Positions 5,537 through 36,702 of a stretch of 64,000 bases of DNA are shown in pieces; position 1 is the stretch's first letter; each line of letters starts with the position of its first letter. This DNA is from Antedon mediterranea (Eukaryota > Echinodermata > Crinoidea > Comatulida > Antedonidae). The notes below the pieces were generated by a model, which was not told where the DNA came from, searched no databases, and saw nothing but the letters and a program-made list of their open reading frames with translations. Made by a program: the position numbers and the translations under genes. The stretch lies in assembly GCF_964355755.1 (NCBI RefSeq), contig NC_092671.1, positions 22,649,070 through 22,713,069 on the forward strand, given 5' to 3'.

Positions 5537-6656
5537 TATAATGTTTACCATACTGGTTTGTTCTTACTACTTGTAGAATTGCATTTTAATTCAAAATAAT
5601 TTAAAACGTAATTGTTACACGGACAATTATCTGATTAATTGATTTAATTTATGAAAATATCATATCACTGATGCCAACTTTACTGTTCTTTAAAATCTGA
5701 ACCTGAAAATACATTTGACATAGCAATTTCGCTGTCGTATCATAGGGTACGGGTATGTAGTTGTTGTCTGCTAATGTATGTATATGTTGTGTATTTTCAT
5801 TGGTTAAGGTTAAAATCACTGATGCATCACTGAATTAGCGTTATGAAATCTACCCTCTCCCGCTAGAGTTATTAACGCCACTGGCGCGGAGTAACAGCTT
5901 CCTAACGCTAATCCGCAGCATGGTTCAGACACAAAAATATGTACGCCGCTTACATAACTCCACCGTAACTCTGTGAGTCTGAACACACCCTAAGGGGCTT
6001 GTACATGTAATGAATGTCACATGTTCTGAAATAAAAGTTGTTGTTTGATTATTTGATAAGCTAAATTACCCTCAAATCATTCATGTATTTAATACCCTAT
6101 ACTTTATAAATAAATATAGAGCATTTCAGACTATATTTATGTTAAACTGCAATGTAATGCATTTCAACAAATTAATGTTAGATAATGGGCTATTTACATC
6201 ATTCACACTCTCATTTTCGTCTTCGTATTAACAAAAAAAGTTACATATCTTACCCTGAAGCTAGAAGAAGTCCATTTGCAGAAAATGCAACAGAATTTAC
6301 ATTAGCTGTATGTCCTTTCAGCTTACATCTTAGTTTTGTACAGCATACTAAAAAATTAATAGTAAAGGTAAAAAAGCATTAACAAATCATTTTGTACATA
6401 CATAAATAATTAAAAAGGGTGCTCGAGTATAAAATATATAATACCTATAGGGAATATAGCCATACATTATATCATAAATAACATAACAAGTGTTTTTTTA
6501 AGTTATACAGTTGGCAATCTTAGTTTTCAGAAATGTATCCTTAGTTTTGCAACGATAATTAGGATACCTTATTTATTATTGATGTCATTAAATGGCCAAA
6601 AAGAAAAAAAATATAATTAGGCCTATTTAGTATAATTGTACCAATTAAGAGAGCCA
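5537..6656. other. Unannotated AT-rich interval
   Basis: No gene or element with two ends could be supported. There is a plus-strand open frame of 65 codons at 6185-6382, but it has no recognisable domain and no splice context. Confidence 0.4.
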
Positions 6657-7316
6657 GTCACTAAAAATCAAACATTAGGTGGCAAGGGTCAAAATTTCGA
6701 ATTGGCTCATATTTTGCACATCGTTAGACCTTGATGTAAGTAAACCTAATGTGTAGTTTGTTTGGTAAAATATTGCTTAGTTTTCGAGAAAATCGAAAAA
6801 TAACGATTTTTGTCCAATTTTGTTAATTTTTGGTGTATAATTCACATTAAGTTTAACAGCCTCTGGAAGCTAAACGTAGCAACCTAGCGTTTTAATATTT
6901 TACACTTACATTAACTAGCATCTTGACATTTTAAGATTTTTATTAATTATTAATAATTATTTTATTAATTAATTACTAATTAGCAATTATAAAACTCTAA
7001 AAAAGTAGGGTAGTAGGGTTTTTTTTCATGTGCAACAAATTTTTTTTTAATAAAAAAATCATCAATCTAAAGTATAGATACCGGTACTAATATTTATGAA
7101 TCAAGTAAAAGAAAATTGGGGAAACTATTGTGCGCTCTGCGCCAGAGCCACAAAGTTGTAAGAAATTCAAAGATTTAATCTGTCAGCAAGATCAATTAAA
7201 TGTACCTATTATTATCTATTTAGCAATCTAAGTCACTTTGAGCCAAACTTTTATTACGAGAAACAAACTTGAAAGATAAACTGAAAGTTCCTGGAATAAT
7301 TTTGAATTAAGTTGCA
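6657..7316 (+). repeat. Left terminal inverted repeat of X
   Basis: It matches the reverse complement of 21706-22340 over nearly its whole length, including GGCAAGGGTCAAAATTTCGA, TTAACAGCCTCTGGAAGC, AAAAAATCATCAATCTAAAG and GTAAGAAATTCAAAGATTT. The arms differ by many substitutions and some indels around the AT-rich stretch at 6930-7030, so the element is not recent. Confidence 0.85.
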
Positions 7317-7446
7317 ATTTACATGCAAACTAAAATACGTCTCTGGTAAAATTTAAATTACTAACCAATACAAAATTAAGCAATTAACTAAAAATCACTC
7401 GCTTATGCTTTGTCAAACCATATAGGCTAGTCAATCTAGCTAAAAC

Positions 7447-8108
7447 AGTCGCGTGCTTAGTGTTTACCGACCGACCGACCAACTGACCGAAATTACTGAA
7501 CATGTTTAAAAATGTTGAAATGTTTAAAAACAGTTATATTTTTTTAATTTACACGTGCGTAGCCTGTCACTTTTGACGTGCTCGTATAACGTAATTTCGA
7601 GTTGAAAAGTAAGTCAAGAAAACAGAAATCGGGCAAAAAGAGTGCGCAATAACATTTAACGCGCAGTGCGCGCGCAAAAATCTGCGCACTCATGGCAATT
7701 TTGTAAACGCTTAAAATTGCCTGAAACGTACTCTTATTTCATCGAAAATAAATTTTGAAAATGTTAAGCGCGCGTACGCATGCGTTACATGCGCTACGCA
7801 CGTAATTGTATTGCCATATGATGATTTATGCCCTGAAATTTATGAGTACCAAATTTTATTTAATTGTGATTCATGGTTGTGAAGATATGATTACAAACGT
7901 GATTTCGTTAAATCGTGCGTAGACCGCGTAATTTTTTATTGCGCACCGTGAAAACATAACCACATCGATTCCTGGCCATAAGGAATATACTGTGAAAAAT
8001 TGACTTAGTTAGATTAAACTGATATCAAGATAAGGTCAGAAAGCGATAAAACGCATAGTGAGACCGACAGACCGACATAGTGAACTATAGAGTCGCTTCC
8101 ACGCGACT
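7447..8108. mobile_element. Repeat B, copy 1 (AGTCGCGTG/CACGCGACT ends)
   Basis: A 662-bp insertion with short inverted ends AGTCGCGTG and CACGCGACT, flanked by TAAAAC and AAAAAC, which may be an A-rich target duplication. A CCGACCGACC motif lies near the left end and GACCGACAGACCGACATAG near the right. The body (7485-8078) is repeated almost unchanged at about 25290-26690, where it contains an extra MITE. The insertion splits the outermost part of the left arm of foldback A, as the intact right arm shows. Confidence 0.65.
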
Positions 8109-8336
8109 AAAAACAGCCTAAAGTGAAACAAATTGCAAACAGAGATTTTTCTTTTTTATATGGTCACATATGATGAGGAGATCAAAATTTGAGCATCACA
8201 CCTCTGTCACTCATCCCGATGATATGCAAATTAGCTTAAATATGCAAATTAGGGTGAAATTACAGGGTTATCATATCTCAAAAACTACTAGTCCGAGAGA
8301 GTTGATTTTTTCACTGATTTATTCAAAATGTATATA

Positions 8337-9163
8337 CCGTATATTTCGGTGCATAAGTCGCACTTTTGACACGCAAATTTGACCTCTAAATTAAGGGTGC
8401 GTCTTATACACCGAACATAAATGCCTCACCACACAGAGTGTACATATCGTCACCTCGTTGGCTAGGCTAGGCCTAGCTACAGTGTACTAACGTAATGGCA
8501 ACCTGCTTCTGCCTAGTTTTCAAGGCATTTTAGCGTGATGTTATACTAAATATGATGAAAAGATTTGTTTATTATGGAGCTGTTTTAGGCGCTCCGATAA
8601 AATTTCATTTGTAAACGTTTACAATTGGAATATTTATTTATAGTTATACGCACGATCGCCGACCGCCGTACCCCCAGCGCAAGCCCTTCTTGGCGGCCAC
8701 ATGTTGTACGGTATTCGACTAGTATATTCTCCAAGTGATTATAGCATGGACCTAGCGTACACACTTCTCGGATACATAGATACTAATCGAATACGATTGT
8801 CCGTGAAAACGTGCGCCCTCTCGAAATGATCGAGCGAGGCTAGCCCACACACGTGCGTGTTAAACACACGGTCATGCACTCGATGTTGCGGGTGCGAAAC
8901 TCATGAATAACAAGTTAGAAACAACTTGTTGAGGCTGGGCGCGGCCGAGCCTAGGTAAGAAAAAAACCTAAATAAAGGACGCCGTTGTAGATATAACAAA
9001 ATATATTATTACAATAAGATTGATTACAATTTAAAAAAAACATTGTTTTGATGAAATATAAGGTGCATCTTATACATCGACGATATAAAAAATACCGATA
9101 TTTTACTCTCAGTTAGGGGATGCGTCTTATACACAGGTGCGACTTATACACCGAAATATACGG
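8337..9163. mobile_element. TA-flanked MITE with CCGTATATTTCGG termini
   Basis: It starts CCGTATATTTCGGTGCATAA and ends ACACCGAAATATACGG. TA lies directly outside both ends (8335-8336 and 9164-9165), and removing the element plus one TA restores the 340-bp unit of foldback A. GGTGTATAAGACGCACC-type motifs repeat inside both ends. At 827 bp it has no transposase. A second copy lies at 25542-26353 in inverted relation. Confidence 0.85.
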
Positions 9164-11289
9164 TATTTATATTTTCTCTAATGAAACATTTTACAAAAAA
9201 AAGACCGGAAGTACAACATTTGACCCTCGACCCCATTTTCAATGTTTGCGTACACAATGTGACTGAAATGTCTGTAGAGACTTTATTTTGCCGTCAAATG
9301 ACCCCGATATAGGTTCCTAATAGCTAGCATAGGACCACTTTATAATTCCCAAAATCACACCTTTGTCACACACCTCGAAAGTATGCAAATTAGTAGTACA
9401 AGTTAAATAAAATATGCAAATAAGAGTGAAAATTTACAGTTGTCATATATGTCAAAAACTACTAATGCTAGAGAGTTGATTTTTTCACAGCTGTATTCAG
9501 AATGTACATATTTATATTTGCTCTGATGAAAAATTTTACATAAAAATGACCGGAAGTATGACATTTGACCCTTGACCCCATTTCTCAATATTGCATATTA
9601 TAATAAAACTAAAATGTCTGTAGAGATTTTGTTCTGCCCTCAAATGACTCGGATACAGATTTCTAATAGCCAACATAGGACTGTTTAGTAAATTTCAAAT
9701 CACACCTGTATCACTCACCTCCAAAGTATGCAAATTCTTAGTACAAGTCACATAAAATATGCAAATTAGGTGGTGAAATTACAGTTTCCTATATATCGAA
9801 AACCACTAAGGCTAGAGAGTTGATTTTTTTTTTAATTGTTCAGAATGTACATATTTATATTTGCTCTAATGAAACATTTTACGAAAAAATGACCGGAAAT
9901 ACAAAAATTGACCCTTGACCCCCATTTATCAATGTTTGCATACATAATGCGACTACCATGTCTGTAGAGACTTTATTTTAGACTCAAATGACTCGGATAC
10001 AGTTTTCTTATAGTCTGCATAGGACCGTTTTGTAATTTCCAAAATCACATCTTTGTTACACACCTCGAAAGTATGCAAATTAGTAGTACAAATTACATGA
10101 AATATGCAAATAAGGGGGTCAAATTATAGTCTTCCCATATCTCGAAAACCATTAATGCTAGAGAGTTGATTTTTTCAAGGCCTTATTCGGAATGCACATA
10201 TTTATATTCGCTCTAATGAAACATTTTACCCCAAAAATTTACAAAAGTATGACATTTGACCCTCGACCCTATTTCTCAATATTTGCATATAATGCAACTA
10301 AAATGTCTGTACAGACTTTGTTTTGGCCTCAAATGACTCAGATACAGGTTTTCTATAGCTAGCATAGAACTGTTTAGTAATTCTCAAAATCACACCTTTT
10401 TACTTCCCTTGAAAGTATGCAAATTAGTAGTACAACAGGTGAAAGTTGCCATATCTCTATCGGTCATTAGGGTTTTTTCGAGATATGGCAATTCACTGTA
10501 ATTTGCATATTTCATATAACTTTCTTTTACTACTAATTTGCATACTTTTGAGGTGCTTGACTTTTAGAATTACTAAACGGTCCTATACGGGCTATATAAA
10601 ACCTGTATACAAGTCATTTGAGGCCAAAACAAGGTCTGTACATACATTTTAGTTGCATTATAATTATATGCAAATATTAAGAAATAGGGCCGAGGGTCAA
10701 ATGTCATACTTCTGATAAAGAAATAATAAAATGTTTTATTAGAGCGAATATAAATATGTACATTCTGAATAAGGGCTTGAAAAAATCAACTCGCTAGCAT
10801 TATTGGTTTTCGAGATATGGGAAGACTGTAATTTCACTCCCTTATTTGCATATTTCATGTAATTTGTACTACTAGTTAGCATAATTTTGAGATGCGTGAC
10901 AGAGGCGTGATTTTGGGAATTACAAAGCGGTTCTATGCTGACGATAGAAAACCTGTATCCGAGTCATTTGAGTCCAAAACAAAGTCTCTACAGACATTTT
11001 AGTCGCATTATGTATGCAAACATTGATAAATGGGGTCAAGGGTCAATTTTTGTATTTATTTTTGTATTTATTTATAAAATCAACTCTCTCGGACTAGTAG
11101 TTTTTGAGATATGATAATCCTGTAATTTCACCCTAATTTGCATATTTAAGCTAATTTGCATATCATCGGGATGAGTGACAGAGGTGTGATGCTCAAATTT
11201 TGATCTCCTCATCACATGTGACCATTTAAAAACGAAAAATCTCTGTTTGCAATTTGTTTCACTCAAAATGCTAGATTGACTAGCCTAAT

Positions 11290-11425
11290 ATTATTATAAA
11301 TTATTCAGTTCTATCCTCTCATAGTTTATAGGAAAAAACTGAAAACACATTTGTTTAACTTGTTATCGTTTTCCTGTTTGTCGAACCTGGTTGAACTTAC
11401 TCAATGAGAATGTTTCACAACATTA
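11290..11425 (+). pseudogene. Possible LINE ORF2 C-terminal scrap
   Basis: A plus-strand frame from about 11307 reads YRKKLKTHLFNL and stops soon after. The KKLKTHLF motif is typical of the extreme C-terminus of L2/CR1-like ORF2 proteins. It is short and has no other support, so this is a weak call. It lies between foldback A and the first exon of the X gene. Confidence 0.3.
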
Positions 11426-11564
11426 ACCACATCAAACAAAACACTTTACTGACAACGATATCTTCATTGACGTTGACAACGGAACTGATTTTTTATCCAT
11501 TTTAGTTTATGTCTTACAATGTAAAGACGTGTTGAAAATAATTCTTATATATAATTATTGTCTG

Positions 11565-12006
11565 ATGGCTTTAAGTTCAAACAATATGGAGATTTCATGT
11601 TCTATTAAATCGGTTGTCGGCAGAGCTTGTGGATTCGATAGAAAAGACCGCAAACAGAGCACTGAAGTCCTACCTTTACAAGCATGCCAGAAGGAAATCG
11701 TTGCACACAGATACATGTTTAGGTTTACGGGCTGGGGCATCGATAGTGAGGTAGACCTAATTCTTAGTCGAGCAGCCATGTTTAGCTTGCCCGATGATAT
11801 ACATAGTTGGACTGTTTGTCCCTTGCATCGATCGGAACTGGGCTTAGGTTGGTCTTGAGGAAATAACAACAGATGTAGAGTGCCGCCTGATCTCTCTAAT
11901 CACATCCAAAGCAAGGGAAAGGGACCTAAGTGAGATAGGGGTATTAGCAAAGAAGATTCGCAACTAATATTAAAGAAAACAGGAACTTTCCTGCAAGTTG
12001 GTTCAG
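11565..12006 (+). pseudogene. X gene exon 1, N-terminal Cys/His segment
   Basis: The frame opens with ATG at 11565 and reads through HSWTVCPLHRSELGLGW. It meets a TGA at 11856, continues NNNRCRVPPDLS, meets a second TGA near 11930, and ends LKKTGTFLQVGSG at a GGTTCAG/GTAAAT donor after 12006. The C..H...C spacing resembles the zinc-binding N-terminus of the family. Exon 2 (12093-12194) follows a TTTTTATCAG acceptor and continues GICSTQ before a frame change, ending at an AACT/GTAAGT donor. Confidence 0.65.
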
Positions 12007-12382
12007 GTAAATACAATTTAATTTTTATATTTAATGTAATTTAAAATGTTAAAAAAGAACCTGTAAGTAAATGTTTTTACGCTTTTTATCAGGTATCTGT
12101 TCAACGCAAGATGCTGAAGTTATTGTTACCTGTAACCTCGAACACTGAAACAAATAGCCCTAGTCTCGTCGATCAGATGAGTGCACTAACAACTGTAAGT
12201 TAAAAAATACCGTACAGTATGACATTTATGAATACGCATTTATTGGCGGAAAGATTAAGTAAATAATGTGTTTCATGTTACTTTGTTCATTTTATTTCGT
12301 ATGTTGATGGTAGGAGGAATAATTTCTGCATTCCCTGCCATTGTCATCATCTTTCTATATATATCAATATTATATATTCAAG

Positions 12383-12662
12383 GGACGTCAGTCCAATTAA
12401 ATATCCTTTATCTGCACTGCTGGAGCAAGTTTCAGACCGTACTTAACGTTTCCACATGCGAAAGGCTCGTCAAGTTGTCTCTATGTGCCTGGAAGAAATC
12501 GCACCTAGTCAGTCGACTACTCTACTTGAAGTTACATCAAGTGATAAAACCACAGAAGCTGACGAAAGAACCGATTCTTCTCTATTAGATGCACTTTCAG
12601 AATGCTACCTTCATACTAACCACTGGAGTACAAGACGTCAGATTTTATCGATCATGGTTGAT
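12383..12662 (+). pseudogene. X gene exon 3, left part (split by LINE)
   Basis: After an ATATTCAAG acceptor the frame reads DVSPIKYPLSALLEQVSD, a TAA, then RKARQVVSMCLEEIAPS, and later ALSECYLHTNHWSTRRQILS. It breaks off at the codons for IMVD at 12662 and resumes in the same frame at 18117 with KVTFKELQKW. TTGAT flanks the intervening LINE on both sides. The DVSP, RKARQVV and STRRQILSIM blocks match the remembered family. Confidence 0.7.
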
Positions 12663-14687
12663 GAAGCCGCTCGTATTGTCGGAGATACTGTGAGTAATAT
12701 ATCAGAGGCGTCCCCTGATTCCCCTAAATTCGTACTTGGAGATATAAACCACAGCGGTAAAGAAATAAAGAAAGCGTTGCCTACTTTCAAAAAGTACGTT
12801 GATAAACCTACTCGAGACGGGAATATCCTGGACAAGTGTTTCTGTAATTTAAACAAGGCCTATAGATGTATTATCAACGCTCCTATTGCAAGTTCTGATC
12901 ATAACGTCATTACCCTATTACCAACATATAGACAAAAAATTAGAGCGGAAAAGCCTACCAGGAAAATAATTAAAGTTCGAAATAGTGAGGCAATAGAAAA
13001 GCTACAAGAATGTTTCCAGTCTACTGATTGGTCAGCACTTATTGATACAGCAAATGACCTTAATTCAGCAGTAAAAGTTGTGAATGATTATATCTCATTT
13101 TGCGAGGAATTATGTGTTGAAACTAAACGTGTCACCTTTTATCCAAATCAGAAGCCTTGGTTTACACACCAAGTCAAAGCACTCATTCGCGAACGATCAA
13201 ATGCCTTTAAAAGTGGTGATACAGTTCGCATTAAATCTATAAAAGCAGAAATAAAGAATGAGATAAAAAGAGCAAAATATTTATTTAAAGGAAAGCTTGA
13301 AAATTCCATGGAATCTGGAGATGCCAAGGCGGCCTGGAATTGTATGAATATTATGTCTGGTGTTAAAGCAAAAAAGAAGATGGACCTTTCGCTATACAAT
13401 GACGGTGATAAATTTGTTAATGACCTAAACAAGCACTTTGCGCGATTTGAGAATGCCAGTCCTACCAATTGTACCAATCTGACTTCAAATATTATTACTA
13501 GCGAACATGTTAAGATTCAGCCTTGGAAAATTGAAAAGTTGTTAAAAAAAGTGAAACGAAATAAAGCAAGTGGTCCTGATAACATTAGCGGCTGTATTCT
13601 GAGGACATGTGCCCATGAACTGTCTATTCCCTTTACCAAACTGTTTCAACTGTCGTTAGATAATCATATTGTACCATCGGTCTGGAAAGATGCATCTATT
13701 ATTCCAGTACCCAAAATTCCAAACCCTAAGATTTTGAATGACTACCGCCCAATAGCCTTAACCTCGATAGTGATGAAATGTTTGGAAAATTTATGTGTAA
13801 CTTAATTATTACTCCCTTATCCCATTTAATTGATCCATATCAGTTTGCATACCAATCATGCAGATCTGTCGATGATGCGATACTAACTCTTACCCAACTG
13901 TTAAACCCGCATACAAATAACTTAAGTTGTTATGCGAGAGTTACCTTTGCTGACACAAATATAGGATCACCCCAAGGATGTGTGTTAAGCCCCCTCTTGT
14001 TTATTTTATATACCAATGACTGTAAGTCAACTTCTAGTAGCATACATTATTTAAAATATGCGGATGACACCGCCATTGTTGGCCTATTAAAAAACAGAGC
14101 TAGTGAAACTGAATATCATGATGAAATCGTTGCTTTTTCGAATTGGTGTAAGACAAATTGCCTCTTACTAAACGAAAAGAAAACCAAAGAAGTAATAATT
14201 GATTTTCGAAAAAAATATACTGCTTTGGCTCCCCTAAAAATTAATAATCAGGAAATTGAATCTGTTGAAAGCTACAAATACCTAGGTGTGACTGTTGATA
14301 ACAAATTTAGCTGGGAGAAACACTGTAAAAATACTATAAAAAAAGGAAATACACGACTGTTCTTTCTCAGAAAACTGAGAAATTATGGGGTAGATAGAAC
14401 TGTATTAAATTTATTTTACTCTTCGATTGTTGAGAGTGTGCTCACTTTCTGTTGTGTTGCCTGGTTCTGTGGATGTAGAACAGAAGAAAAAACCAGATTA
14501 CAACAAATATTAAATAAAGTAGGTAGGATCACAGGATCTAGACATAATTTGGATGACCTTTGCAACAAAATCATAAGAAATAAGGCTATGAAAATTTGCG
14601 ACGACTCAAACCACCCTTTAAATAAACATTATGTTAAAATGAGATCGAAAAGACTAAATGTGCTGAGATCGTGCAATAGTAGGGTTA
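12663..14687 (+). pseudogene. LINE ORF2: partial endonuclease and reverse transcriptase
   Basis: The sequence starts in the C-terminal half of an APE-type endonuclease (PKFVLGDINHSG, then ASSDHNVI) and runs into RT (NKASGPDNISG, then NDYRPIALTS). One frame change near 13780 moves the reading to the frame with HLIDPYQFAYQ, GSPQGCVLSP, KYADDTAIVG (the catalytic ADD) and YKYLGVTVDNKFSW. About 60-70 residues that normally follow the first catalytic Asp are missing: the frame goes from VTFAD straight to TNIGSPQGC near 13955. The element is inactive. The reading frame continues at 17814 beyond foldback D. Confidence 0.85.
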
Positions 14688-17600
14688 TAGTCAGGGTCCT
14701 CGTGTATTTCCGTAGGATTTTAATGTCCAAAGTGAGATTTTACTTGATTTCACTTTATTATGGTGCTAGGATACCAAAAATGTTAGGTAACAAATTTTCA
14801 CGATCCCGTAACCATGGTAACAGCCCCAAATTCAAAATGGCGACCAAATGGCCATATCTCCATAACCCTTTGGTCTATTGACAAGATATTGGCATCAAAA
14901 TACTCGGAATATATATATTTATATTCGTTGTAATAGAACATTTTAACTAAATGCAACCGGAAATGCTATTTTCTGTACTATTGACCCTTGACCTTGACTC
15001 GTACTGTATCTTAAAAACGGCTGGTCATAGAAATTTTTAAATGGTCTCAAATTGCTCAGACCTTATATATTTATATTTATTGTAATGCAATATTTTGTTA
15101 GAAAATGACCGGAAGTAAAGTTATTGACCTTTGATATAGAGAATAGCTTACAAGAATTTTTATTCAGTAGTCTATGGTCATATCTCCATAACCCTTTGGT
15201 CTATTGACAAGATATTGGTATCAAAATACTCGGAATAAATATATTTATATTCGTTGTAATAGAACATTTTTACTAAATGTAACCGGAAATGCTATTTTTC
15301 TGCACTATTGACCCTTGACATTGACTCGAACTGTATCTAAAAAACGGCTGATTATAGAAATTTTAAAATGGTCTCAAATTGCTCAGACCATACATATTTA
15401 TATTTATTTTAATGGAACATTTTGTTAGAAAATGACCGGAAGTAAAGTTATTGACCTTTGACCTAATAAACATGAACTTTATGTATATAAGCATTTATCT
15501 ATTTCAGCATGTATGGTCAATTGTTTGTGGTGGGGATTAAAAAAATGAGTTTATACATATTATCATCATTCGAATATTTAATTTATAATCACATATTTAG
15601 TTTTTATATATTTTATAAATAGTATATACTTTATAGTGTAAGCACATTTATCTATGTAAACAACTTTGGACAATAGTAAAAATTACAGCAGAAATTCATT
15701 CATTCATCTACTTCACTAAAATGACGTAGCCAAATTGATTCTTCCTGCACTTTTCCTGAAATGTTAATTGCTATACTTTTTTCATTTTGGAGCTCCAAGA
15801 AACTGGAGCTCCAAAATTGGATTAAAACATTTTTAATTACATCAGTACTATGCATTTATTGTGTCAGCATCCGTGTTGCCATTAAGACAGTCAAGGAGTG
15901 AGAGTGGTTGATTCTTCAACTTTTGTACCTTTAATGCTTGTTCTTGAAACATTTTCATATAATGGAGGTTTCTCATACATTGAACTGCTGCCCCGGCCAT
16001 ACATTATTACGTGGTTAGACGTTCCTTGGTTTTTCTTCTTAGATGTTTCGAGATATGAGAAGCAATCTTTCAATGCTAACATTGACTGCCATTTTGTGAG
16101 TCATATCGCCAAGCCAACGGACCAATTTAAGGAGTGAGATTGTTAGAAGTTTTTGATGTTTACAGCATCTTATGATTTTATCTCCTTCAAGCTACTAAAT
16201 GTTTTTAGTTTAATTTTCATTTCAGGTAGTCCACAACAACCAGACTTTGCTCACAAACTTCAAAAAGCTTCAACTCCTTTTTTTATTATCTCTGTTTAAG
16301 ATATATTTCTTTACTTCTTTTGAAATTATTACTAAGACAAAGTTTTAAAAAGTGTTGATTTTGTTATGAATGTATTTTGATGAAATCTTGAAGTATTTGT
16401 GTGTTTTGTGTTGAAGAGTGAGTTCGATGGGATATCTAGTTCGATTTCCTCCTCCTAAGTAATGCCAACAAGATCACCAATCCATTTTAACTGGTTTTCC
16501 TTCTGTTCTAGAGCCTGATCCGGGAAAAGAGCAAATAGTCTATTTCTTTACATTCAAATTAATTACATTCTTTTATTCACTGTTATTGGGTCATCTACAT
16601 CAAGCCAAGCTGGTCATTTGTGTGTTAGATGGCAATGTATCAGACGAGCATATAAATGAAAACCAGTCATGGGCAAAACAAATCTGCAAGATACCTTTCT
16701 AATATTATAGGTTATAATTACCATCAAATCTCACTCTGACATTTACTACTTTTTAGTTTTAGCTAAATCAGAAATCTTCAATTAATAAGTTTATAGAGAT
16801 TCAAAATGGCAATTGAAAACAATATTTGAAAATGTGAGTTTAGAAAAGAACTGAATGCATAACATAATTATCCTAGTGAACGCCAGGCTAGTGATCTGGA
16901 GGTTGTTGTCCCACATTACTTAAGTATTAATGATGTATTCTTAGTAAAAGTGAAAATTACGTCAGAGTAGGGCCAAAATATCTGACCAATATTTATCCAT
17001 CCTTGTAATGTAAATAGCTAATATTCTCTATGTCAATGGTGAATAACTTTACTTCCGGTCATTTTCTTACAAAATATTGCATTACAATATATGTATTGTC
17101 TGAGCAATTTGATACCATTTTTAAATTTCCATGACCAGCCGTTTTTTAGATTGAGTGCGAGTCAAGGTCAAGGGTCACTAGTAAAAAAAAAGGCATTTCC
17201 GGTTACATTTAGTCAAAAAGGTCTATTACAACGAATATAAATATATTTATTCCGAGTATTTTGATACCAATATCTTGTCAATAGACCAAAGGGTTATGAA
17301 GATATGACCAGAGACTACGGAATAAAAATCCTTGTAAGCTATTCTCTATGTCAAAGGTCAATAACTTTGCTTCCGGACATTTTTTAACAAAATATTGCAT
17401 TACAATAAATATAAATATATAAGGTCTGAGCAATTTGAGACCATTTTTAAATTTCTATGACCAGCCATTTTTAAGATACAGTACGAGTCAAGGTCAAGGG
17501 TAAATAGTACAGAAAAAAAGCATTTCCGGTTGCATTTAGTAAAAATGTTCTATTACAACGAATATAAATATATATATTCCGAGTATTTTGATACCAATAT

Positions 17601-17809
17601 CTTGTCAATAGACCAAAGGGTTATGGAGATATGGTCATTTGGTCGCCATTTTGAATTTGGAGCTGTTACCATGGTTACGGGATCGTGAAAATTTGTTATC
17701 TAGCATTTTTGGTATCCTAGCACCAAAGTAAAGTAAAATCAAGTGAAATCTCACTTTGGGCATTAAAATCCTACGGAACCCCTATTTTCATACATGAGGA
17801 ACCTGACTA
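14688..17809. mobile_element. Foldback element D inside the LINE
   Basis: It starts TAGTCAGG (14688) and ends CCTGACTA (17809). GTTA precedes it (14684-14687) and follows it (17810-17813). Joining the outer sequence across one GTTA restores the LINE frame through SRVMRYFNSFVPYSIRLLN to a TAA, which fixes the ends precisely. The arms are about 785 bp (14688-15475 and 17025-17809). Each holds two tandem units of about 320 bp, with ATATCTCCATAACCCTTTGG, TTTATATTCGTTGTAATAGA, AACCGGAAATGC and TTGACCCTTGACC. The 1.55 kb centre shows no recognised coding sequence. Confidence 0.9.
15480..17020. other. Central spacer of foldback D
   Basis: AT-rich DNA between the two arms. It holds overlapping short frames on both strands at 15891-16137 with no recognisable domain. 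Nothing further can be supported. Confidence 0.4.
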
Positions 17810-17813
17810 GTTA

Positions 17814-18111
17814 TGCGATATTTTAATTCTTTTGTTCCGTATTCCATTAGACTGTTAAATGATATTGCATAATTTTTGAAATTTTTGATGTATTGCTGCT
17901 TTTTTATTATTTATATAGTCAATAGTAGTTTTATGTTCATACTTGTACATTGTTAAATAATATATAGTGTTTTTAAATATTGTAATTAATTATTTTTATA
18001 TGAAACGTTTTATATATTTTTGTACTATATTGTGAAAAGCACTCAAAATATTTTCCTATGTGGAAAAAATAAAGTTATCAATCAATCTATCAATCAATCA
18101 ATTGATAAGGT
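17814..18111 (+). pseudogene. LINE ORF2 C-terminus and 3' UTR
   Basis: Beyond foldback D the frame reads FNSFVPYSIRLLN and stops with TAA at 17870, a standard L2-type C-terminus. An AT-rich 3' UTR of about 200 bp follows, then AATAAAG and an (ATCA)n tail that abuts the X exon. Confidence 0.8.
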
Positions 18112-18116
18112 TACCT

Positions 18117-18670
18117 TCAAGGAACTGCAGAAATGGATAACTAACTTGACAAGATACCGTTTTAACGTGGCCAAACACCATTTATTGTTACATGGTAGAG
18201 GTTCTGTAATTCAACCTCTAAAGAACACTAGAGCATGCATACAGCCAGGGAAAATCGACCACTTTGTATACCTTTATAACAAGTTCTCAAGTTATACAAG
18301 ACTTGCCATTTGGAGAAGAAACTCTAAAACTTTCTACAGACAGAGTTATAAAAATCCCAAATGTTGTGCGTAATCTTATCCCAGAACAATGTATTCTTCA
18401 ATACGAGAGTTACTGTCAAGAGAAGGATTTTCAACCTATGAGCCGCAGTACATTGCGTAGAGTTCTCAGCGTTTGTTCTGCTTCTGTACGCAAATCCTTA
18501 CAGGGCCTTGATTATATCTCTGCCAATGGTGGAAAAGCCTATGATGACCTGGAGAACATCGTTGATAAGTTGGGAGATTGCTATGAAATGGATTTGACTT
18601 GGGCCAAACAAAAAAACCAAAAACCAAGTCAACAGCTGTTAGTCGGCGAAACGTCAAGTTCTCTGGAAAT
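18117..18670 (+). pseudogene. X gene exon 3, right part
   Basis: It continues exon 3 after the LINE: KVTFKELQKWITNLTRYR, HHLLLHGRG, then after a frame change near 18265 TFITSSQVIQDLPFGEE, and VRKSLQGLDYISANGG. A second frame change in an A-rich run near 18615 is needed to read VSRRNVKFSGN up to the donor GGAAAT/GTAAGT after 18670. These blocks are the most conserved part of the family. Confidence 0.7.
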
Positions 18671-18956
18671 GTAAGTACCGATATCATCTTACAAACTTGA
18701 CCTTATATTGGATCATATAGAAGTAACTTTTTATCACATTATATTATCAGATCTAAATGAACTTATTTAACAATCTTTGACTATAAGGTAATAACAATCT
18801 TGTTTAAATATCTTGATAACTGCTACAGTATAAATAGAAAAACAATATAATAAAAAAAACGCAAAGTAGCGCGTTGTATGTTGTTTAGTAAAGCATGTAA
18901 GAAACAATCAAGACTAATTACATTTTTTATACAATTTATTTTATATATTATTGCAG

Positions 18957-20839
18957 ATTCACATTTCTAACCATTCTGAAGTTGCCGATCATTGTAGGGC
19001 GTATGCTCTTAGTTCTTACGAAAACAAAGGTTACCAGACTGTCTGTGATCATGACCACAATGCAAGATGTAACAGGTGTCGTATATTTCCAGAAGCTTTG
19101 TCTGAAATTCATGAAGCTTTAAACGAAGTGCGCTGCTCTTCTAAAGAAAAAGATGACATGAAGTACGTACTTACACGGTCAGTCCAAGACATCGAGACGT
19201 GGAAGGCGCATATCTTAAGATCCATTAACCAAGACGCTGCACGACATGATATTTTAGGAGATTTGAATCCTGGTTGTGCCCTAATTGTTTTAGACTGGGC
19301 GATGAAGTTTGTACCACATAAATACCGCGAAAGCCAAAGAGACTGGTTTGGAAAGCGTGGACTTCCGTGACGAAAAAGAATAAAGATAGAGAGGTACTGA
19401 TGCTAATTACGTTTGTGCATATTTTAAAATCTTGCAGTCAGGATATCGACTATGTGTTGAGGCAGCTGCCATCTATTGCACCCGATATACACTCTGTTTA
19501 TCTGCGTCAAGATAATGCCGGATGCTACCACTCTGCCCTAACATTACTCTCGTTACCAAAGATAGCGAAAGAAACTAAGATAAAAATCCGACGTATTAAT
19601 TTTTCGGACCCACAAGCGGGGAAGGGTGCATGTGACCGCAAGGCAGCCCATATAAAAAATCACATGAATAAATATCTTAATTCAGGAAAAGATATTGAAA
19701 ATCCAGAGCAGATGAAGGCACCAATTGAGTCCTTTGGGGGCATTCCTGGAGTGAAAGTCATAGTTTGTGCTTTACCTACTGGTACTATCTGTGCAACAGC
19801 AAAATGGAAAGGCGTGAGTCACATCAACAACATAGAGTATGGAAGCAGGTCCATGAAGGTATGGTTGGCGTATGGTATTGCTGCAAGACAAAATCTACTT
19901 TTGAGTAAATTCGGTGTGCCCTCGAAACTACCAAATTTAATTCATAATAAGGATACGTCTGATAAAAATCAAGCATCATTTATTACAGTAAAAGCAAGAA
20001 TACAAGTCAAGACATCTTATGAAGAACAAGCTGATATAAATGACGACGACTAAATAGAAAGTGAAGAAAGTTCTGGCACCCCCAGCAAACTGTTCTTTTG
20101 TCGCGAATAAGGTTGCATTAGGTCATATCAGAGGTACTCTTCCCTAGAGAAACACTTAGATTATGAAAATCACAAGAACGCACTAGAACATGAAACACTT
20201 CAAAATCTAGAACCAAAGATTTGCCACGGTTTGACATTGGCCCCGACCTGCAAATGGGCTGGGAGTTAAAGTCCTCTGCAAAAAAAAACCTGATTTTCTG
20301 TTCCACAGACATCCTACCTTACTGATGTTTTTGACGCTGGAGAGCAGACAGGACAGAAAGCTGATCCATGTGATGTCTCACGAGAGATGAGATCGGCCAG
20401 GCACAGCGATGGTTCACATCTATTTTCTCACGCTGGGCTAAAAAAAGGACAGATGCAGCCGTTCATGATGATGATGACGAAGATGATGATTACGATAGTA
20501 ATGAAGATGGTGACGAAATTGAAAAAAATGGAGACGATTAAAAAATGGATACGATTCAAAAATGGAGACGATTCAAAAACGGAAAAAGAAAGAGAAATTC
20601 AAATTTTGTCGCAAACTGTACTGGACACAATAGGCTTGCAGCATCCAATAATGTTTGAAAGGCATAATATTTTTGAACTGAAAGCTAAAGAAAAATTCTC
20701 CAGATTCTTGGTGCCAATGTTGCAAGAAATGTGTACTTCTCTTGAACTTGATACCACAGATATAACCATAAAGCGCAAGAAGCCATACATTGATTTGCTG
20801 GGAAAGCTGGTTTCCATGTGCAGTTGCTCGATTGATTAA
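18957..20839 (+). pseudogene. X gene exon 4: candidate D-D-D core, C2H2 finger, C-terminal domain
   Basis: After a TTATTGCAG acceptor the frame gives IHISNHSEVADHC and CDHDHNARCNRC, then LIVLDWAMKF (Asp at 19292), a frame change near 19366, LRQDNAGCYHS (Asp at 19511) and FSDPQAGKGACDRKAAH (Asp at 19607 and 19634). The spacing of about 73 and 32-41 residues is compatible with an RNase-H-fold transposase core, but this is inference. Two stops (20051 and 20108) precede or interrupt a C2H2 finger, CRE-stop-GC, followed by SYQRYSSLEKH and ENH. The conserved tail FDAGEQTGQKADP, then LQHPIMFERHNIFEL and IKRKKPYIDLL, ends CSCSID at 20839. An Asp-codon-rich stretch at 20460-20520 reads acidic in one frame and Met-rich in the other. 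Confidence 0.7.
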
Positions 20840-21433
20840 GGTAGCAACGAAGGTAAAACTGTGTCTGTGAGAATTCTTTAAAATAACAATTTAATATGTG
20901 AGACGATTCTGTTCTCTAAATTGTTAGTATTTTAATTCGCGTTCTGTAAATTTTTAATAAAGCGGAGGGGTGAAAAAATAGTAAAACAATAGTTTATTGT
21001 TTGGACTACAAATTATTAGGAAATTTCGCACGACCACATAAACGTTAACGGATGTCACCATTATACTCATTTACCTAACAACAGAGTTCAGCGAACATTT
21101 TGCGTTAACGCCCTTGCTCGTTTTGATTTTGCGCTTCGACAGGAAGTGTTGAACGCAACGCATGTGTAGCGCAAGCAACATACGCCACACGTATTAAAAC
21201 AAATCATGGAATACCTTGGGTTTAGAGACTAGGCTTAGCCAAGCGTGTTTAATCATTTTACATTTTTCATTGAAGCTATTTTTCAGAAATAAGGTTCTCG
21301 ACACAAGTAACTAAAGTTTTCGTAATGCTTGCGCATGCAAAGATCAAGTTCTTTTGGAGCTTGAAAAATAGCGTTAAGGTTAACATGCTCGTGCGAGAAG
21401 ATGATATGAGAAGATAAGAACATTATGTTGTAA
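20840..21433. other. 3' flank of the X gene
   Basis: An AATAAAG at 20956 lies about 115 bp downstream of the stop and could be the polyadenylation signal. No other gene or repeat boundary was found in this interval. Confidence 0.4.
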
Positions 21434-21604
21434 AGCCTGTTTTCCACTAGGCGAAATTATTCGAGCAAATTAAACATTTTCGCGTATACGCACGTTCAAT
21501 GGAAAACTTTGTTGATAAAAATAAACTGTGCATGCGCTCGTATAATGCAAAAAATGTTCAATTCGCGCAAATAAATTCACCTAGTGGAAAACATAACAGG
21601 CTTG
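21434..21604. mobile_element. Small palindromic MITE (TTTTCCACTAGGCGAA ends)
   Basis: AAGCCTGTTTTCCACTAGGC on the left is mirrored by CCTAGTGGAAAACATAACAG followed by GCTT on the right. Inner parts also pair loosely (CGAGCAAATTAA against TTCGCGCAAATA). About 170 bp, with no coding capacity. I could not define a target duplication because the inverted symmetry reaches into the flanks. Confidence 0.6.
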
Positions 21605-21705
21605 AGGAAGCTAAGCGAGTTATAATGTTAAGCTCAGATAGAATTGCTTAATTTCATCATGGGTTAGTCGTTAAAATTTGACTAGAAATTTATGTTTAGT
21701 GTTTA

Positions 21706-22340
21706 TATTAAAACGTAATTCCAAATTATTCAGGACCTTTCAGTTTACCTTTAAAGTTTGTTTCTCGAAGTAAAAGTTTACCTTAAATTCGTAAATAGAG
21801 AACAATAGGTACATCTGATTGATCTTGCCGACAGATAAAATCTTTGAATTTCTTACAACTTTGTAGCACTGACGCGGAGCGGAAAATAGTTTTCCCAAAT
21901 TTATTTTACTTGATTCATAAATATTAGTATCTAAACTTTAGATTGATGATTTTTTTATTTCAAAAAAATACTTTTTAAGCATTTTATTTATGCTTATTAG
22001 TAATTGGTTGGTAAAAATCTTATAATTTCATCAAATTTTTTTGAAACTTTACTACATTATTGTCAAGATACTAGTTAATGTAAGTGTAAAATATTAAAAT
22101 GTTAGGTTGCTACGTTTGGCTTCCAGAGGCTGTTAAACTTAATGTAAATTTTACACCAAAAATAACAAAATTGGCCGAAAATCGTTATTTTTGGATTTTC
22201 TCAAAAACTAAGCGATATTTTACCAAACAAACTACACATCACATTTACTTACATCAAGGTCTACCAATGTGCAAAATATGAGCCAATTCGAAATTTTGAC
22301 CCTTGCCACTAAATTATGAATATGTCTGATTTTTGGTGAC
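21706..22340 (-). repeat. Right terminal inverted repeat of X
   Basis: This is the inverted counterpart of 6657-7316. It contains GCTTCCAGAGGCTGTTAA, TCGAAATTTTGACCCTTGCC and CTTTAGATTGATGATTTTTT. It ends near GATTTTTGGTGAC at 22340. The 60-codon frame at 22099-22281 falls inside the repeat and is not a gene. Confidence 0.85.
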
Positions 22341-22379
22341 AATCACTTAAAGAGTAAAGTAAGTAAAACTCGGGCAGCC

Positions 22380-25164: not shown

Positions 25165-26687
25165 AACAGCCATTAAGTCGCGTGCTACAATGCATAGTGG
25201 TACCGGACCGACAGACAAACAGACCGACAGACAAACAGACCGACAGACAGACAGACCGACAGACAGACGGACCGACCGACATAGTGAACTATACTGACCG
25301 AAATTACTGAACATGTTTAAAAATGTTGAAATGTTTAAAAACATTTATATTTTTTTAATTTACATGTGCGTAGCCTGTCACTTTTGACGTGCTCGTATAA
25401 CGTAATTTCGAGTTGAAAAGTTAGTCAAGAAAACAGAAATCGGGCAAAAAGAGTGCGCAAAAACATTTAACGCGCAGTGCGCGCGCAAAAATCTGCGCAC
25501 TCATGGCAATTTTGTAAACGCTTAAAATTGCCTGAAACGTACCGTATATTTTGGTGTATAAGTCGCACCTGTGTATAAGACGCACCCCCTAACTGAGAGT
25601 AAAATATCGGTATTTTTTATATCGTCGGTGTATAAGACGCACCTTATATTTCATCAAAACAATGTTTTTTTAAATTGTAATCAATATTATTGTAATAATA
25701 TATTTTGTTATATCTGCAACGGCGTCCTTTATTTAGGTTTTTTCTTACCTAGGCTCGGCCGCGCCCAGCCTCAACAGCCGCAACATCGAGTGCATGACCG
25801 TGTGTGTAACACGTACGTGTGGGCTAGCATCGCTCGATCATTTCGAGAGGGCGCACGTTTTCACGGACAATCGTATTCGATTAGTATCTATGTATCCGAG
25901 AAGTGTGTACGCTAGGTCCATGCTATAATCACCTGAAGAATATACTAGTCGAATACCGGACACCATGTGGCCGCCAAGAAGGGCTTGCGCTGGGAGTACG
26001 GCGATCGTGCGTATAACTACTGTATAAATAAATACTATTCCAATCGTACTTAAACATTTACAAATGAAATTTTATCGCTATAATGAACAAATCTTTTCAT
26101 CATATTTAGTATAGCATCATGCTAAAATGCCTTGAAAACTAGGCAGAAGCAGGTTGCCGTTACGTTAGTTAGTTACTGTAGCTAGGCCTAGCCTACTCAG
26201 GCCTAGCAAACGAGGTGACGATAGCCTAGGCCCACCCTAGGCCTATGTACAATCTGTGTGGTGAGGCATTTATGTTCGGTGTATAAGACGCACCCTTAAT
26301 TTAGAGGTCAAATTTGCGTGTCAAAAGTGCGTCTTATACACCGAAATATACGTTACTCTTATTTCATCGAAAATAAATTTTGAAAATTTTAAGCGCGCGT
26401 ACGCATGCGTTACATGCGCTACGCACGTAATTGTATTGCCATATGATGATTTATGCCCTGAAATTTATGAGTACCAAATTTTATTTAATTGTGATTCATG
26501 GTTGTTAAGATATAATTACAAACGTGATTTCGTTAAATCGTGCGTAGACCGCGTAATTTTTTATTGCGCACCGTGAAAACATAACCACATCGATTCCTGG
26601 CTATAAGAAATATTCTGTGAAAAATTGACTTAGCTAGATTAAACTGATATCAAGATAAGGTCATAAAGCGATAAAACGCATAGTGAT

Positions 26688-26690
<3 letters not shown>
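25165..26690. mobile_element. Repeat B, copy 2, carrying a MITE
   Basis: The body from GACCGAAATTACTGAACATG (25293) to AAACGCATAGTGA (26685) matches 7485-8080 almost base for base, apart from an 812-bp MITE inserted at 25542. A GACAGAC/GACCGAC-rich leader (25205-25285) and the GACA microsatellite after 26688 expand the short CCGACC motifs seen at the ends of copy 1. AGTCGCGTG is present at 25174. Confidence 0.7.
25542..26353. mobile_element. TA-flanked MITE, second copy
   Basis: It starts CCGTATATTTTGGTGTATAA and ends ACACCGAAATATACG plus one changed base. TA flanks it at 25540-25541 and 26354-26355. Its interior is homologous, in inverted orientation, to 8337-9163 (for example the shared segments GGTTTTTTCTTACCTAGGCT and GTGTGGGCTAGC). 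Copy 1 of repeat B has the empty site GAAACGTACTCTTATTTC at 7734-7751, proving insertion. Confidence 0.9.
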
Positions 26691-27053
<363 letters not shown>

Positions 27054-31851: not shown

Positions 31852-32900
31852 CTATAACCTAGGCTTTAGCACTGCTGCTGCTACTGGCGCCATGGTTGCA
31901 GAAATGTCCCTTAAATAATGCGCAGTAAATGTAGACTGTGTCCGCCACCATGCCGCTGTCATAATGTCTGATACAGCAACGCCAGCATACAACGCCCAGA
32001 ATGTAGCAACACCCCGCACCTCATGCATATGTGCCGGCGGCAAAGTGCTGGATGACTCTTAAGCGGCCCGAATCGCTGCCACGACCCAGTTAGCAATCGT
32101 GGATTTTGCGGCCGGCCGATACGGGGGCACCGATGTGACGAATAAGTGAGATATACCCTCTCGCAACGTCTCTGTACGGTGGATGTAGAATTTGAGTGCT
32201 CTTACCGGGCACCAGAATTTGTCTTCTACTACCCCCGAGAATGCGGACATTGATGGAACGAACACAGCCAGCGGCGAAAAATTTAACGTCTGGGACTTGG
32301 CCAGAAAGTCCTTCCTGAATATTAACCGAACTCCGCCACGCTCGAATCTTATGGCCTGGCTCTAGCATGAGCGCATGTAGCTCGCCTCGGCGTTTACATG
32401 AGGACAACGCCACCAGAAACGCTGTCTTAAGCGAAAGATTGTATAATGAAGCCTTGCTCATTGGCTCAAATGGCGGGCGAGTGAGTGCGGATAGAACGAC
32501 GTTAACGTCCCAACGTGGAACTAAGACCTTAGACGGAGGTCGCTCTCTGAACATACCGCGTAACAACTGCGTGATTACTGCGGAAGTTGAAGCCGTCGAG
32601 CCATCCTTGAATGGCGGCGTAATGGCCGCAATCGCGGACCGGTAGCCTGACACCGTGCGCACTTGCAAGCCTGACTCGTACAGGTAATGCAGAAACGCGC
32701 AGATCTGACCCAAGGATATCGCCTTAGGGTCTATGTTATCTTGTCTGCACCAGCGAAAGAAGTGTCGTAGACGGCTGTTGTAGACAGTGAGAGTCGACTC
32801 TCTTCTAGATTTGGCCGCCAGGGCGGCTGGGCTGTCCGGAATGCCCGAGTCTCTGAGCTGATCCCTGACAATGGCCAAACAGTCAGGTTCAGGGATTGTA
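31852..32900 (-). pseudogene. DIRS tyrosine recombinase, interrupted
   Basis: The N-terminal core-binding part reads SRRESTLTVYNSRLRHFFRW and SGYRSAIAAI. The catalytic part reads LSSCKRRGELHAL (first Arg). After a frame change near 32345 it continues FVPSMSAFSGVVEDKFWCPV and HLFVTSVPPYRP. A TAA at 32059-32061 precedes AHMHEVRGVATFWA (the H-x-x-R box) and FTAHYLRDIS (the nucleophilic Tyr), ending at 31852. The catalytic residues R, H, R and Y are all present, but two lesions split the protein. It would join the DIRS cDNA circle to the genome without a DDE integrase. Confidence 0.85.
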
Positions 32901-35049
32901 GATTGATCGTCGAGAACCTCGCACGATTTTGCGTCTGTAGATCCGCGCAGACCGAAAGACGCAGCGGGTGATCGTAAAGAAGACTGGCAAGAAGCGGATA
33001 CCACGCTTGTCGAGGCATTAACGGTGCGATCAACAGAACTCGGCATCGGAAGCGCTGAATGTGAGTCAGAACTATTGGTATGATCGATATTGGCGGGAAC
33101 GCGTACGCCCATAAACCGTCCCATGACATGGACAGGGCATCCACCGCCCACGCACGTGCATCCCGGAATCAACTGCAGAACGTCGAGAGCTGCGTGTTCT
33201 CTGACGTCGCAAACAGATCTATGTGCGGCTGTCCGAAGTGGTCGAATATTTGGGTGGCTATGCTCGGCAACAGACGGCATTCGGTCGGGCGTAAAGCGAG
33301 TCGGGACAGCGTGTCCGCGACTACGTTGTGGCTGCCCGGAATATGCGATGCAGTCAGCGTTATTCTGTGCGCGATGCACCAGTGTATGAGCGTCCATGTG
33401 TGGTAGCAAAGAGTCGGAGACTTCGTGCCTCCTTGTCGGTTGACGTACGCGACCACGGTTGTGTTGTCCGAGCAGACATGGACGTGTGAATTTTCTATGT
33501 TTGGAAGTAGCGCTTTCAACGTTCGGTCTACTGCCCAAAGTTCTAAGAGATTGATGTGGGCTAACGCCTCCTCGGCACTCCAAACGCCGGAGACGTGACT
33601 TTGGTTGGAGCAACAGCCCCAACCCGCTTCGGACGCGTCCGTTTCTATTCGGGTGTCCGGAATTGATCTCTGAATTGATCTGCCCACTAACAATCGGCCG
33701 TCCGTTAGCCACCATTGGAGGTGCGTTACAATGAACGCCGACATCGGGACCACTTTGTCTAATGAGTCTGAACCTGGCCGGTAGAAGGCTAACAGATGAA
33801 GTTGCAGCGCCCGCATCCGTAGCCGACAAAACGGAACTAGATCTACAAAGCTGGCTAGGAAACCTAGCGTTCTCAGCCAGTCGTATGCTGTCGGAGCGGA
33901 AGCGGTAATCAGGCCTTGTATAGCAGCAAGGGCTTTGGTTACTCGTTTCTGTGAGGGGCACACTCTGCCCGACACGAGATCTATTTGCGCTCCGAGATAA
34001 ATGGGATGCCGAGTCGGCACCAGGCACGACTTCTCCCGGTTCACAATGAACCCTACGCGTTCCGTTACGAGAAGGACGAAATTGAGACTGCTCACCAGCC
34101 GGTCCTTGGACTGAGCCACGATTAACCAGTCGTCTAGATACATGGATATGCGAATGCCGTGCTTGTGAAAGAACGCACCGAGCGCCCGAACTATGCGCAT
34201 GAACACGCGCGGGGCCGTTGATAGACCGAACGGCATCGCGACGAACTGGTAAAGACAATTGTTGATTCGAAACCGCAACCAACGTTGGTCTTCTTTTGCG
34301 ATTGGTACGTGAAAGTACGCATCTTTTAAATCTATCGATGCGGCCCAGTCTCCTCGTCTTAGCCCTAACAGGATCGATGAGACTGTCTCCATCCGAAACA
34401 TGCGGGGCCGAATAAATCGTTTGTTCAGACGTTTTAGATTTAAAAATGGTCGCCAGTCCCCCGAGGACTTCTCGGTTAAGAATACGGTTGATTCGTGGCC
34501 CGAGCCCGCATGATGTTCTTCGACCCTTACTACGGCTCCTTTTTGGAGCAGCGCGGCAATCCCGTCCATAAGCGCTCGTTGCTTTATTGGATCTTTGGGG
34601 ATTGTGGTCGGACGAGGACCTCCACACACTGGCGGGCTCGTGAATTCTATGCGGTAGCCGTAGCTTAGTGTGGAGAGAATCCAGCTGTCTACCATCAGCT
34701 TCTCCCACTCTCGGACGAACCGTAAGAGACGACCTCCCACTGGTCCGGCCCCCGACGGCACGGACCTCGCCTGCACGTCACCGGTACCTGCGGTCACCCC
34801 GTCGCGAACCGCGGTCCCGACGTGCTCCCCTACCCGGCTTACCGCCACGCGCGGGGCGGGAATTACGGGGTCGCGACGGCCCAGGAGTCTGCCCAACCTC
34901 AGACTGATTATGGACCGACGGCGGCGGTTGTGAGACAGTACGCGATGGCACCACCGGCAGTGGGGCTGGAGGCTTTGGACGCGAGTGCGAACGGCTCGCC
35001 TGGCGTTTCGGAAAACGCGATCTTGTCTCGCGACGTGCCTCTCGCTCAC
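32731..35049 (-). pseudogene. DIRS reverse transcriptase/RNase H
   Basis: RT spans roughly residues 110-360 of the upstream part: SSGDWRPFLNLKRLNKRF, ASIDLKDAYFHV (first catalytic Asp), FVAMPFGLSTAPRVF and MYLDDWLIVAQ (YLDD). RNase H follows at about residues 470-580: ETDASEAGWG, NLLELWAVD, VHVCSDNTTVVAYV and NVVADTLSR. A TGA at 33169-33171 sits where TGG is expected (FCS-stop-F), after which the same frame continues through VDALSMSWDGLWAYAFPP to 32731, overlapping the recombinase region. The 5' part overlaps the gag-like region out of frame. RT converts element RNA to DNA and RNase H removes the RNA. Confidence 0.92.
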
Positions 35050-36325: not shown

Positions 36326-36702
36326 CCTAGCAAGATAAGGAACAATACAACCTTTGTTGTTGCCTCACGCAACAGTGCGTCCACGCCTCAGTCCAGGTGA
36401 CAAAGCAAAATTCCTTTCCTTTGTGTTTAGTAGCGTGGCCGTTGAACGGCCTAAAATCCAATGAAAACTGGTATTTTCCTTGTTTTAATCTTTCTTATTT
36501 CTACCCGAAATAAGGAAGACCCCGATTTGAAACGGATCCAAAGCAAAAAACGATATACAGTATCAAACTATCAAAAGCTGTACCGCAACCGGCGTCTTTA
36601 TAAGGTGTTCGTAAGTAGGCTAGTATAGCATGTACAACGTACACAAGGCTAACACTCAGCGTATCTTTTCTCACACGTCGTAACGTTCTCACGTTACGAA
36701 AG

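Follow-up and report, generated by a model that had tools for sequence, protein, structure and literature searches.

The Sola superfamily of transposons, with its groups Sola1, Sola2 and Sola3, reportedly goes back to Bao et al. in 2009, and a TTAA target and a GAG terminus are attributed to Sola3 elements. In the excerpts of the published descriptions on which we draw throughout, Sola elements encode a DDD transposase, produce a 4-bp target duplication, are mostly 2-9 kb long and have terminal inverted repeats (TIRs) of 11-1124 bp (PMC10741241), and Sola-3 is annotated in Acropora, with enrichment in some genome regions (PMC12314368). Here we analyse a 64,000-nucleotide stretch of the genome of the crinoid Antedon mediterranea (C2:22649070-22713069, referred to as the window; the genome comprises 354 Mb in 18 contigs), in which two inverted arms enclose a multi-exon gene. 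The region is almost certainly the decayed remains of an autonomous cut-and-paste DNA transposon, whose gene encodes a DDD/E transposase with an RNase-H/integrase-like core. The initial annotation of this DNA had proposed that the gene family is the transposase of a TIR cut-and-paste transposon, and the arms, the target duplications and the modelled fold support this proposal. It had also spoken of a mobile identity for an orphan family; the mobile identity holds, and the orphan status probably does not, the family being most likely a known class (Sola) left unnamed by protein databases.

Results

Inverted repeats of about 650 bp, placed earlier at 6657-7316 and 21706-22340, were borne out by alignment: positions 6657-7313 match 21712-22340 in inverted orientation with 78.5% identity over 679 aligned columns (BLAST, E 1e-172). 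We rely on this E-value because a null of random inverted pairs within the window (189 pairs, maximum 623 against 688 observed) was contaminated by the other repeats present there. Comparison with other genomic copies places the true left end 8 bp outside the repeat match (GAGAGCCA, 6649-6656) and the true right end 6 bp outside it (22341-22346). The latter was settled by other copies, since the right tip, about 2 bp short in the window copy, is damaged and the window alone left it ambiguous. Both ends are bordered by TTAA (Table 1).

A genome search with the left arm yielded 40 scored matches of 89 candidates, corresponding to 30 elements: the window copy and 29 others (L009-L037; L001-L008 duplicate the window and L019-L025, and L038 and L039 continue L025 and L024, respectively). 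Both arms were matched in 10 of the 30, 3.9-5.2 kb apart. As a check on whether the arms are a separate repeat, we looked for gene-derived sequence beside them and found it in 29 of the 30 elements, the window included; the exception, L037, has next to its arm only 3' noncoding element sequence in the retrieved stretch. The opposite approach, a DNA search starting from the gene, gave 36 matches representing 35 loci, 28 of them already among the elements found by the arm. Three further loci (L040-L042) carry one or both arms, and at least one arm is present at all 31 inspected loci of the 35. At a 32nd gene locus, C3:27493645, the coordinates put an exact left tip with TTAA 1.2 kb upstream. A protein search of the genome (66 matches) added five loci beyond the DNA search (C7:28335795, C1:18457887, C4:14278821, C4:14290379 and C1:5548673), and for C1:18457887 there is a left tip with TTAA further upstream (C1:18461485).

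Alignment of the copies shows that the elements start with GAGAGCCAGTCAC and end, read on the other strand, with GAGTGCTTGTCACC, TTAA lying outside; they begin with GAG and end with CTC, inside the duplication. Identical 4-bp neighbours, as expected for target duplications, flank 24 of the 27 copies in which sequence of both arms is present, the duplicated sequence being TTAA in 22 copies and TTAC in two (L020 and L027). This count leaves out the window copy and L024, L025, L032, L037 and L042, in which an end is missing or lost in the retrieved stretch. At this base composition, a chance 4-bp match would be expected in about 0.6% of cases by calculation. Flanks of different copies (54 flanks in all) did not resemble one another at E <= 1e-3, which means that the copies are not segmental duplications. 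One of them, L012, has inserted into a tandem satellite of 20-bp units, most of which contain TTAA. Neighbouring units read GGTTTAATTAG, and the interrupted unit reads GGTTTAA, then the element, then TTAATTAG; the satellite is thus a built-in empty site, demonstrating that exactly TTAA was duplicated. The genome contains 26 instances of a 25-bp string composed of TTAA and the left tip, and none of its reversed control.

Full-size copies measure 6,310 bp (L020), 6,685 bp (L022) and 6,859 bp (L040). In L020 each of the three coding parts of the gene corresponds to a long open frame, one of them of 675 codons; in L022 the first coding part is interrupted by a stop. The arms are 732-754 bp long with 88-89% identity in L022, L021, L009 and L016; those of L020 measure 638 bp (92%), and those of L040 form a 657-bp match at 83%. 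Many copies are internally deleted: one internal deletion junction is common to 21 of them (13 of 20 and 8 of 11 stretches in two sets), and a second one is common to L019, L023 and L025. Seventeen aligned copies differ by 0.7-5.9%, and divergence as low as 0.7% suggests that the transposon moved recently in the Antedon mediterranea genome.

A query joined from the pieces of the broken gene matched 1,239 proteins at E <= 0.001 among 6,269 candidates, and a profile of seven divergent members gave 581 matches among the 8,000 candidates scored. Descriptions of the family by name and organism rest on 120 listed homologues of the 1,239. Among the matches listed, the relatives that carry names belong to sea anemones, stony and soft corals, lancelets and bivalves. 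The source name 'Transposase' is carried by one of the 120 (P0049), two are named as other proteins (P0011 and P0095), and the remaining names are for the most part 'uncharacterised', 'hypothetical', 'unnamed' or 'C2H2-type'. Clusters at 90% identity reach hundreds of member sequences (383, 368 and 319), as expected for a proliferating element.

An RNase-H fold had been named as a check on the transposase proposal, and the model of a homologue indeed has an RNase-H/integrase-like domain containing the acids, so that a conserved acidic triad in an RNase-H-like fold is predicted. The structure alignment comprised 119 of the 120 listed homologues, P0095 being left out. Of 115 alignment rows, 99 have D as the third acid and 16 have E. 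The matches listed from the structure search are retroviral integrase cores, at 8-15% identity; the domains surrounding the core differ from the retroviral ones, and no retroviral gene was recognised in the element.

Two observations concern the wider family. In P0001, our own reading, made with no database match, places a homeodomain-like stretch past the C2H2 finger and then a C-terminal tail, at about 680-760 and 820-870. On the minus strand of C7:28335795-28338528 lies a divergent transposase relative, the genome's best match to P0001 (44%), with one 644-codon open frame and a stop in the adjoining piece. It was missed by the DNA search and is therefore probably a second transposon lineage.

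Discussion

What has been observed is a gene between arms of up to about 750 bp, dispersal to unrelated sites, a 4-bp duplication at TTAA (rarely TTAC), and amplified deletion forms that keep both ends. One plausible mechanism would involve recognition of the arms by zinc-binding regions of the transposase, whose three acids would cut and join DNA; a 4-base stagger at TTAA would yield the duplication. The deleted copies may have been moved in trans by full-size ones. One deletion form present at many sites is the pattern of trans-mobilised non-autonomous derivatives of DNA transposons.

Several points weigh against the transposon interpretation. The window copy is dead, its gene bearing stops, frame breaks and a short deletion, and the mobility of the family is deduced from sequence comparison. 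The arm tally covers the inspected loci, nine gene-related ones lying outside it (four short loci from the DNA search and five from the protein search), and the tie between gene and arms rests on one genome. An exact duplication is lacking in three of the 27 copies: L023 has lost its right tip, L036, kept in the count as a miss, has lost its left end, and L041 has TTAA on one side and CTAA on the other. There are two candidates for the third acid, [DE]451 before a helix and the nearly invariant D460 inside it. A Foldseek search with the whole model returned nothing at E <= 0.001; its best rows were Argonaute (5.6e-3) and HIV-1 intasomes and Mos1 (1.4e-2), and the next ones included terminase nuclease and RNase HI, and also Cap4 and TFIIA.

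Could the arms be an unrelated abundant repeat, enclosing a host gene or another element by chance? The window alone would be compatible with this, given the several nested insertions between its arms, and L037, one of the 30 elements found by the arm, is without gene sequence in the retrieved stretch. However, the same gene with the same arms at 31 of 31 inspected gene loci refutes chance enclosure in this genome, the copies without the middle of the gene are internal deletions and not empty TIR elements, and the flanks are unrelated between copies; we regard such an explanation as highly improbable. Still less credence can be given to a virus-like or self-synthesising element of the Polinton type. 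The integrase-like fold, and the retroviral integrase cores among the structural matches listed, would suit it, but the target duplication speaks against Polinton, being 6 bp there in the excerpt of PMC10045372 and 4 bp here. Moreover, the element is small, and frames of at least 90 codons on the gene strand of two full-size copies amount to the transposase gene and one 91-codon frame (in L022). Viral contigs scanned with a few peptide patterns contained no relative passing tblastn, and neither did prokaryote genome contigs scanned in the same way.

A separate problem is the superfamily to which the transposon belongs. Kolobok and piggyBac are better documented TTAA-targeting superfamilies, piggyBac with DDD catalysis, and the TTAA 4-bp duplications would fit either of them. 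The GA..TC termini also follow the RR..YY rule of Kolobok as worded in an excerpt of PMC9587614. However, the C/DxxH signature between the second and third acids is found in one of 113 rows, and in 29 members Pfam detected at E <= 0.01 neither a piggyBac family nor THAP, a domain which is a usual Kolobok feature (PMC6004289, in part). The termini are GAG..CTC, in contrast to CC..GG given for piggyBac in the excerpt of PMC10045372. Assignment to Kolobok or piggyBac is thus very unlikely. Academ, with a 3-bp duplication (PMC5199201, in part) against 4 bp here, does not fit.

Sola offers a closer likeness. The family shares with it a DDD-type transposase (D in 99 of 115 rows; the 16 rows with E are a difference), the 4-bp duplication and occurrence in metazoans. 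The length of 6.3-6.9 kb and arms of up to about 750 bp fall inside the ranges of the PMC10741241 excerpt, a comparison made by description and not with Sola sequences. Two findings speak against the label: a mollusc survey counted 64 Sola3 among 14,275 DDE open reading frames (PMC10294476, in part), whereas bivalve proteins are frequent among the named matches listed here. The element has a TTAA target and a GAG terminus, both attributed to Sola3. Since the published Sola features are present, and Kolobok, piggyBac and Academ each differ in at least one feature, we take the transposon as near certain and its membership in the Sola group as likely, probably in Sola3; this assignment is based on the published features and the TTAA target attributed to Sola3.

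Alternatively, the family might be a DDE transposon superfamily absent from curated libraries. It would then form an independent TTAA-targeting lineage whose members have long arms and a transposase that is Cys-rich at the N-terminus and ends in a C2H2/homeodomain-like/SAP-like tail; its range would take in cnidarians, lancelets and bivalves, with recent activity in Antedon mediterranea. The database results would suit such a lineage. Neither the gene pieces nor eight homologues contained a Pfam family at its cut-off, and 29 members gave at E <= 0.01 weak matches alone (zf-C2H2 in two; BORCS6, SAP at E 0.0023, Rep_fac_C and ACBP4_C in one each). NCBIfam gave no above-chance match for the transposase family, all PDB sequence matches below E 0.01 were zinc-finger proteins, others being weaker, and a literature text search found none of five family motif strings. 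On the other hand, the Sola description is matched on every feature that can be checked against the PMC10741241 excerpt, Sola-3 is already annotated in Acropora (PMC12314368, in part), and a family common in Nematostella, Branchiostoma and oysters would hardly have been overlooked by Repbase curators. An unlisted superfamily of this kind is therefore rather unlikely.

As a member of the Sola group, the element most likely allows a common, hitherto uncharacterised family of animal genes to be named and does not reveal a new kind of system; the result is solid and useful for annotation, and probably ordinary. Proteins of corals, anemones, lancelets and bivalves labelled 'uncharacterised' or 'C2H2-type' become readable as transposase genes, not as expansions of host gene families. 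With ends, target and arms now defined, pattern-based annotation of other genomes is possible, and TTAA-specific elements may be of practical interest as gene-delivery tools.

Annotation of the window

The layout of the window copy is given in Table 1. It is collinear with the full-size L022 except for 7424-11287, a gap of about 250 bp near 12370, directly preceding the second coding part, the long interspersed nuclear element (LINE) at 12663-18101 and a patch at 18625-18777. The same alignment showed that the earlier estimate of about 6.4 kb, once two insertions are removed, was right. Rfam reported nothing at gathering threshold within the window.

Table 1. Features of the transposon copy in the window (positions in the window)
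Feature	Position	Strand	Remark
Left target-site duplication, TTAA	6645..6648	.	Same place relative to tip in other copies
Left TIR, tip GAGAGCCAGTCAC	6649..7380	+	Inner border approximate
Later insertion 1, nested TIR elements; motif GGCTAGTCAATCTAGC inverted at its two ends	7424..11287	.	Absent from L022
Transposase gene, first coding part (Cys-rich N-terminal region), decayed	11586..12005	+	tblastn to P0055, P0009; frame open in L020
Transposase gene, second coding part before LINE (STRRQILSIM)	12369..12662	+	tblastn P0087 77%
Later insertion 2, LINE (RVT_1)	12663..18101	+	5-bp duplication TTGAT
Transposase gene, second coding part after LINE, one frame break near 18265	18102..18624	+	
Patch unaligned to L022 (18625-18777) and intron end, acceptor AG at 18956	18625..18956	+	
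Transposase gene, third coding part: catalytic domain (LDWAMKF, RQDNAGCYH, DPQAGKGACDR), C2H2 finger, KRKKPYI tail	18957..20836	+	Open 675-codon frame in L020
3' noncoding part containing internal palindrome (21438-21593)	20840..21659	+	
Right TIR, tip damaged here	21660..22346	-	Inner border approximate
Right target-site duplication, TTAA	22347..22350	.	Comparison with other copies

All the conserved peptide blocks reported earlier were located: STRRQILSIM at 12627-12656, SVRKSLQGLDY within 18222-18671, LDWAMKF within 18957-19367, RQDNAGCYH and DPQAGKGACDR within 19367-20050, and KRKKPYI at 20771-20791. The gene starts further upstream than these blocks, with the Cys-rich part from about 11586, which contains a stop. 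Breaks of the third coding part are a short deletion at 19367, a stop at 20051 and others further on. Because of this deletion, the Asp spacing of about 73 residues noted previously applies to the window copy, and relatives mostly show 82-84, then 28-31. The intron acceptor at 18956 is common to the window copy and L020, its donor side being uncertain in the window. The initial annotation counted exactly one gene between the repeats, which is true solely of the element itself, since the LINE of insertion 2 encodes a reverse transcriptase (RVT_1, Pfam, E 1.3e-12).

The palindrome in the 3' noncoding part is entire in L021, L022 and L023, and a 43-nt core of it occurs in many other copies; either a miniature element inserted long ago or a structure with a function could account for it.

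L022 is collinear on both sides of insertion 1 and does not contain it. Within this insertion lies an inner palindrome (8122-11263, 188 nt, 98%). A palindromic element is also nested in the LINE at 14708-17778 (arms of 265-331 nt, 95%, inner repeats of about 327 bp), and it has short repeats in common with the 8122-11263 element (345-bp repeats). The short repeat of insertion 1 at 7482-8083 recurs with 96-98% identity at 25293-26709, where a copy of 8335-9165 (84% similar) interrupts it, so that the same pair of elements is nested at both sites. Further downstream, on the minus strand at 32090-36364, there is a DIRS-like retroelement (RVT_1, E 3.8e-22; RNase-H-like RVT_3, 7.1e-5) in a GC-rich block (0.56 for 32-36 kb). 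The reverse transcriptase and RNase-H-like domains of this retroelement overlap a frame that weakly matches phage-integrase SAM-like domains (8.8e-5).

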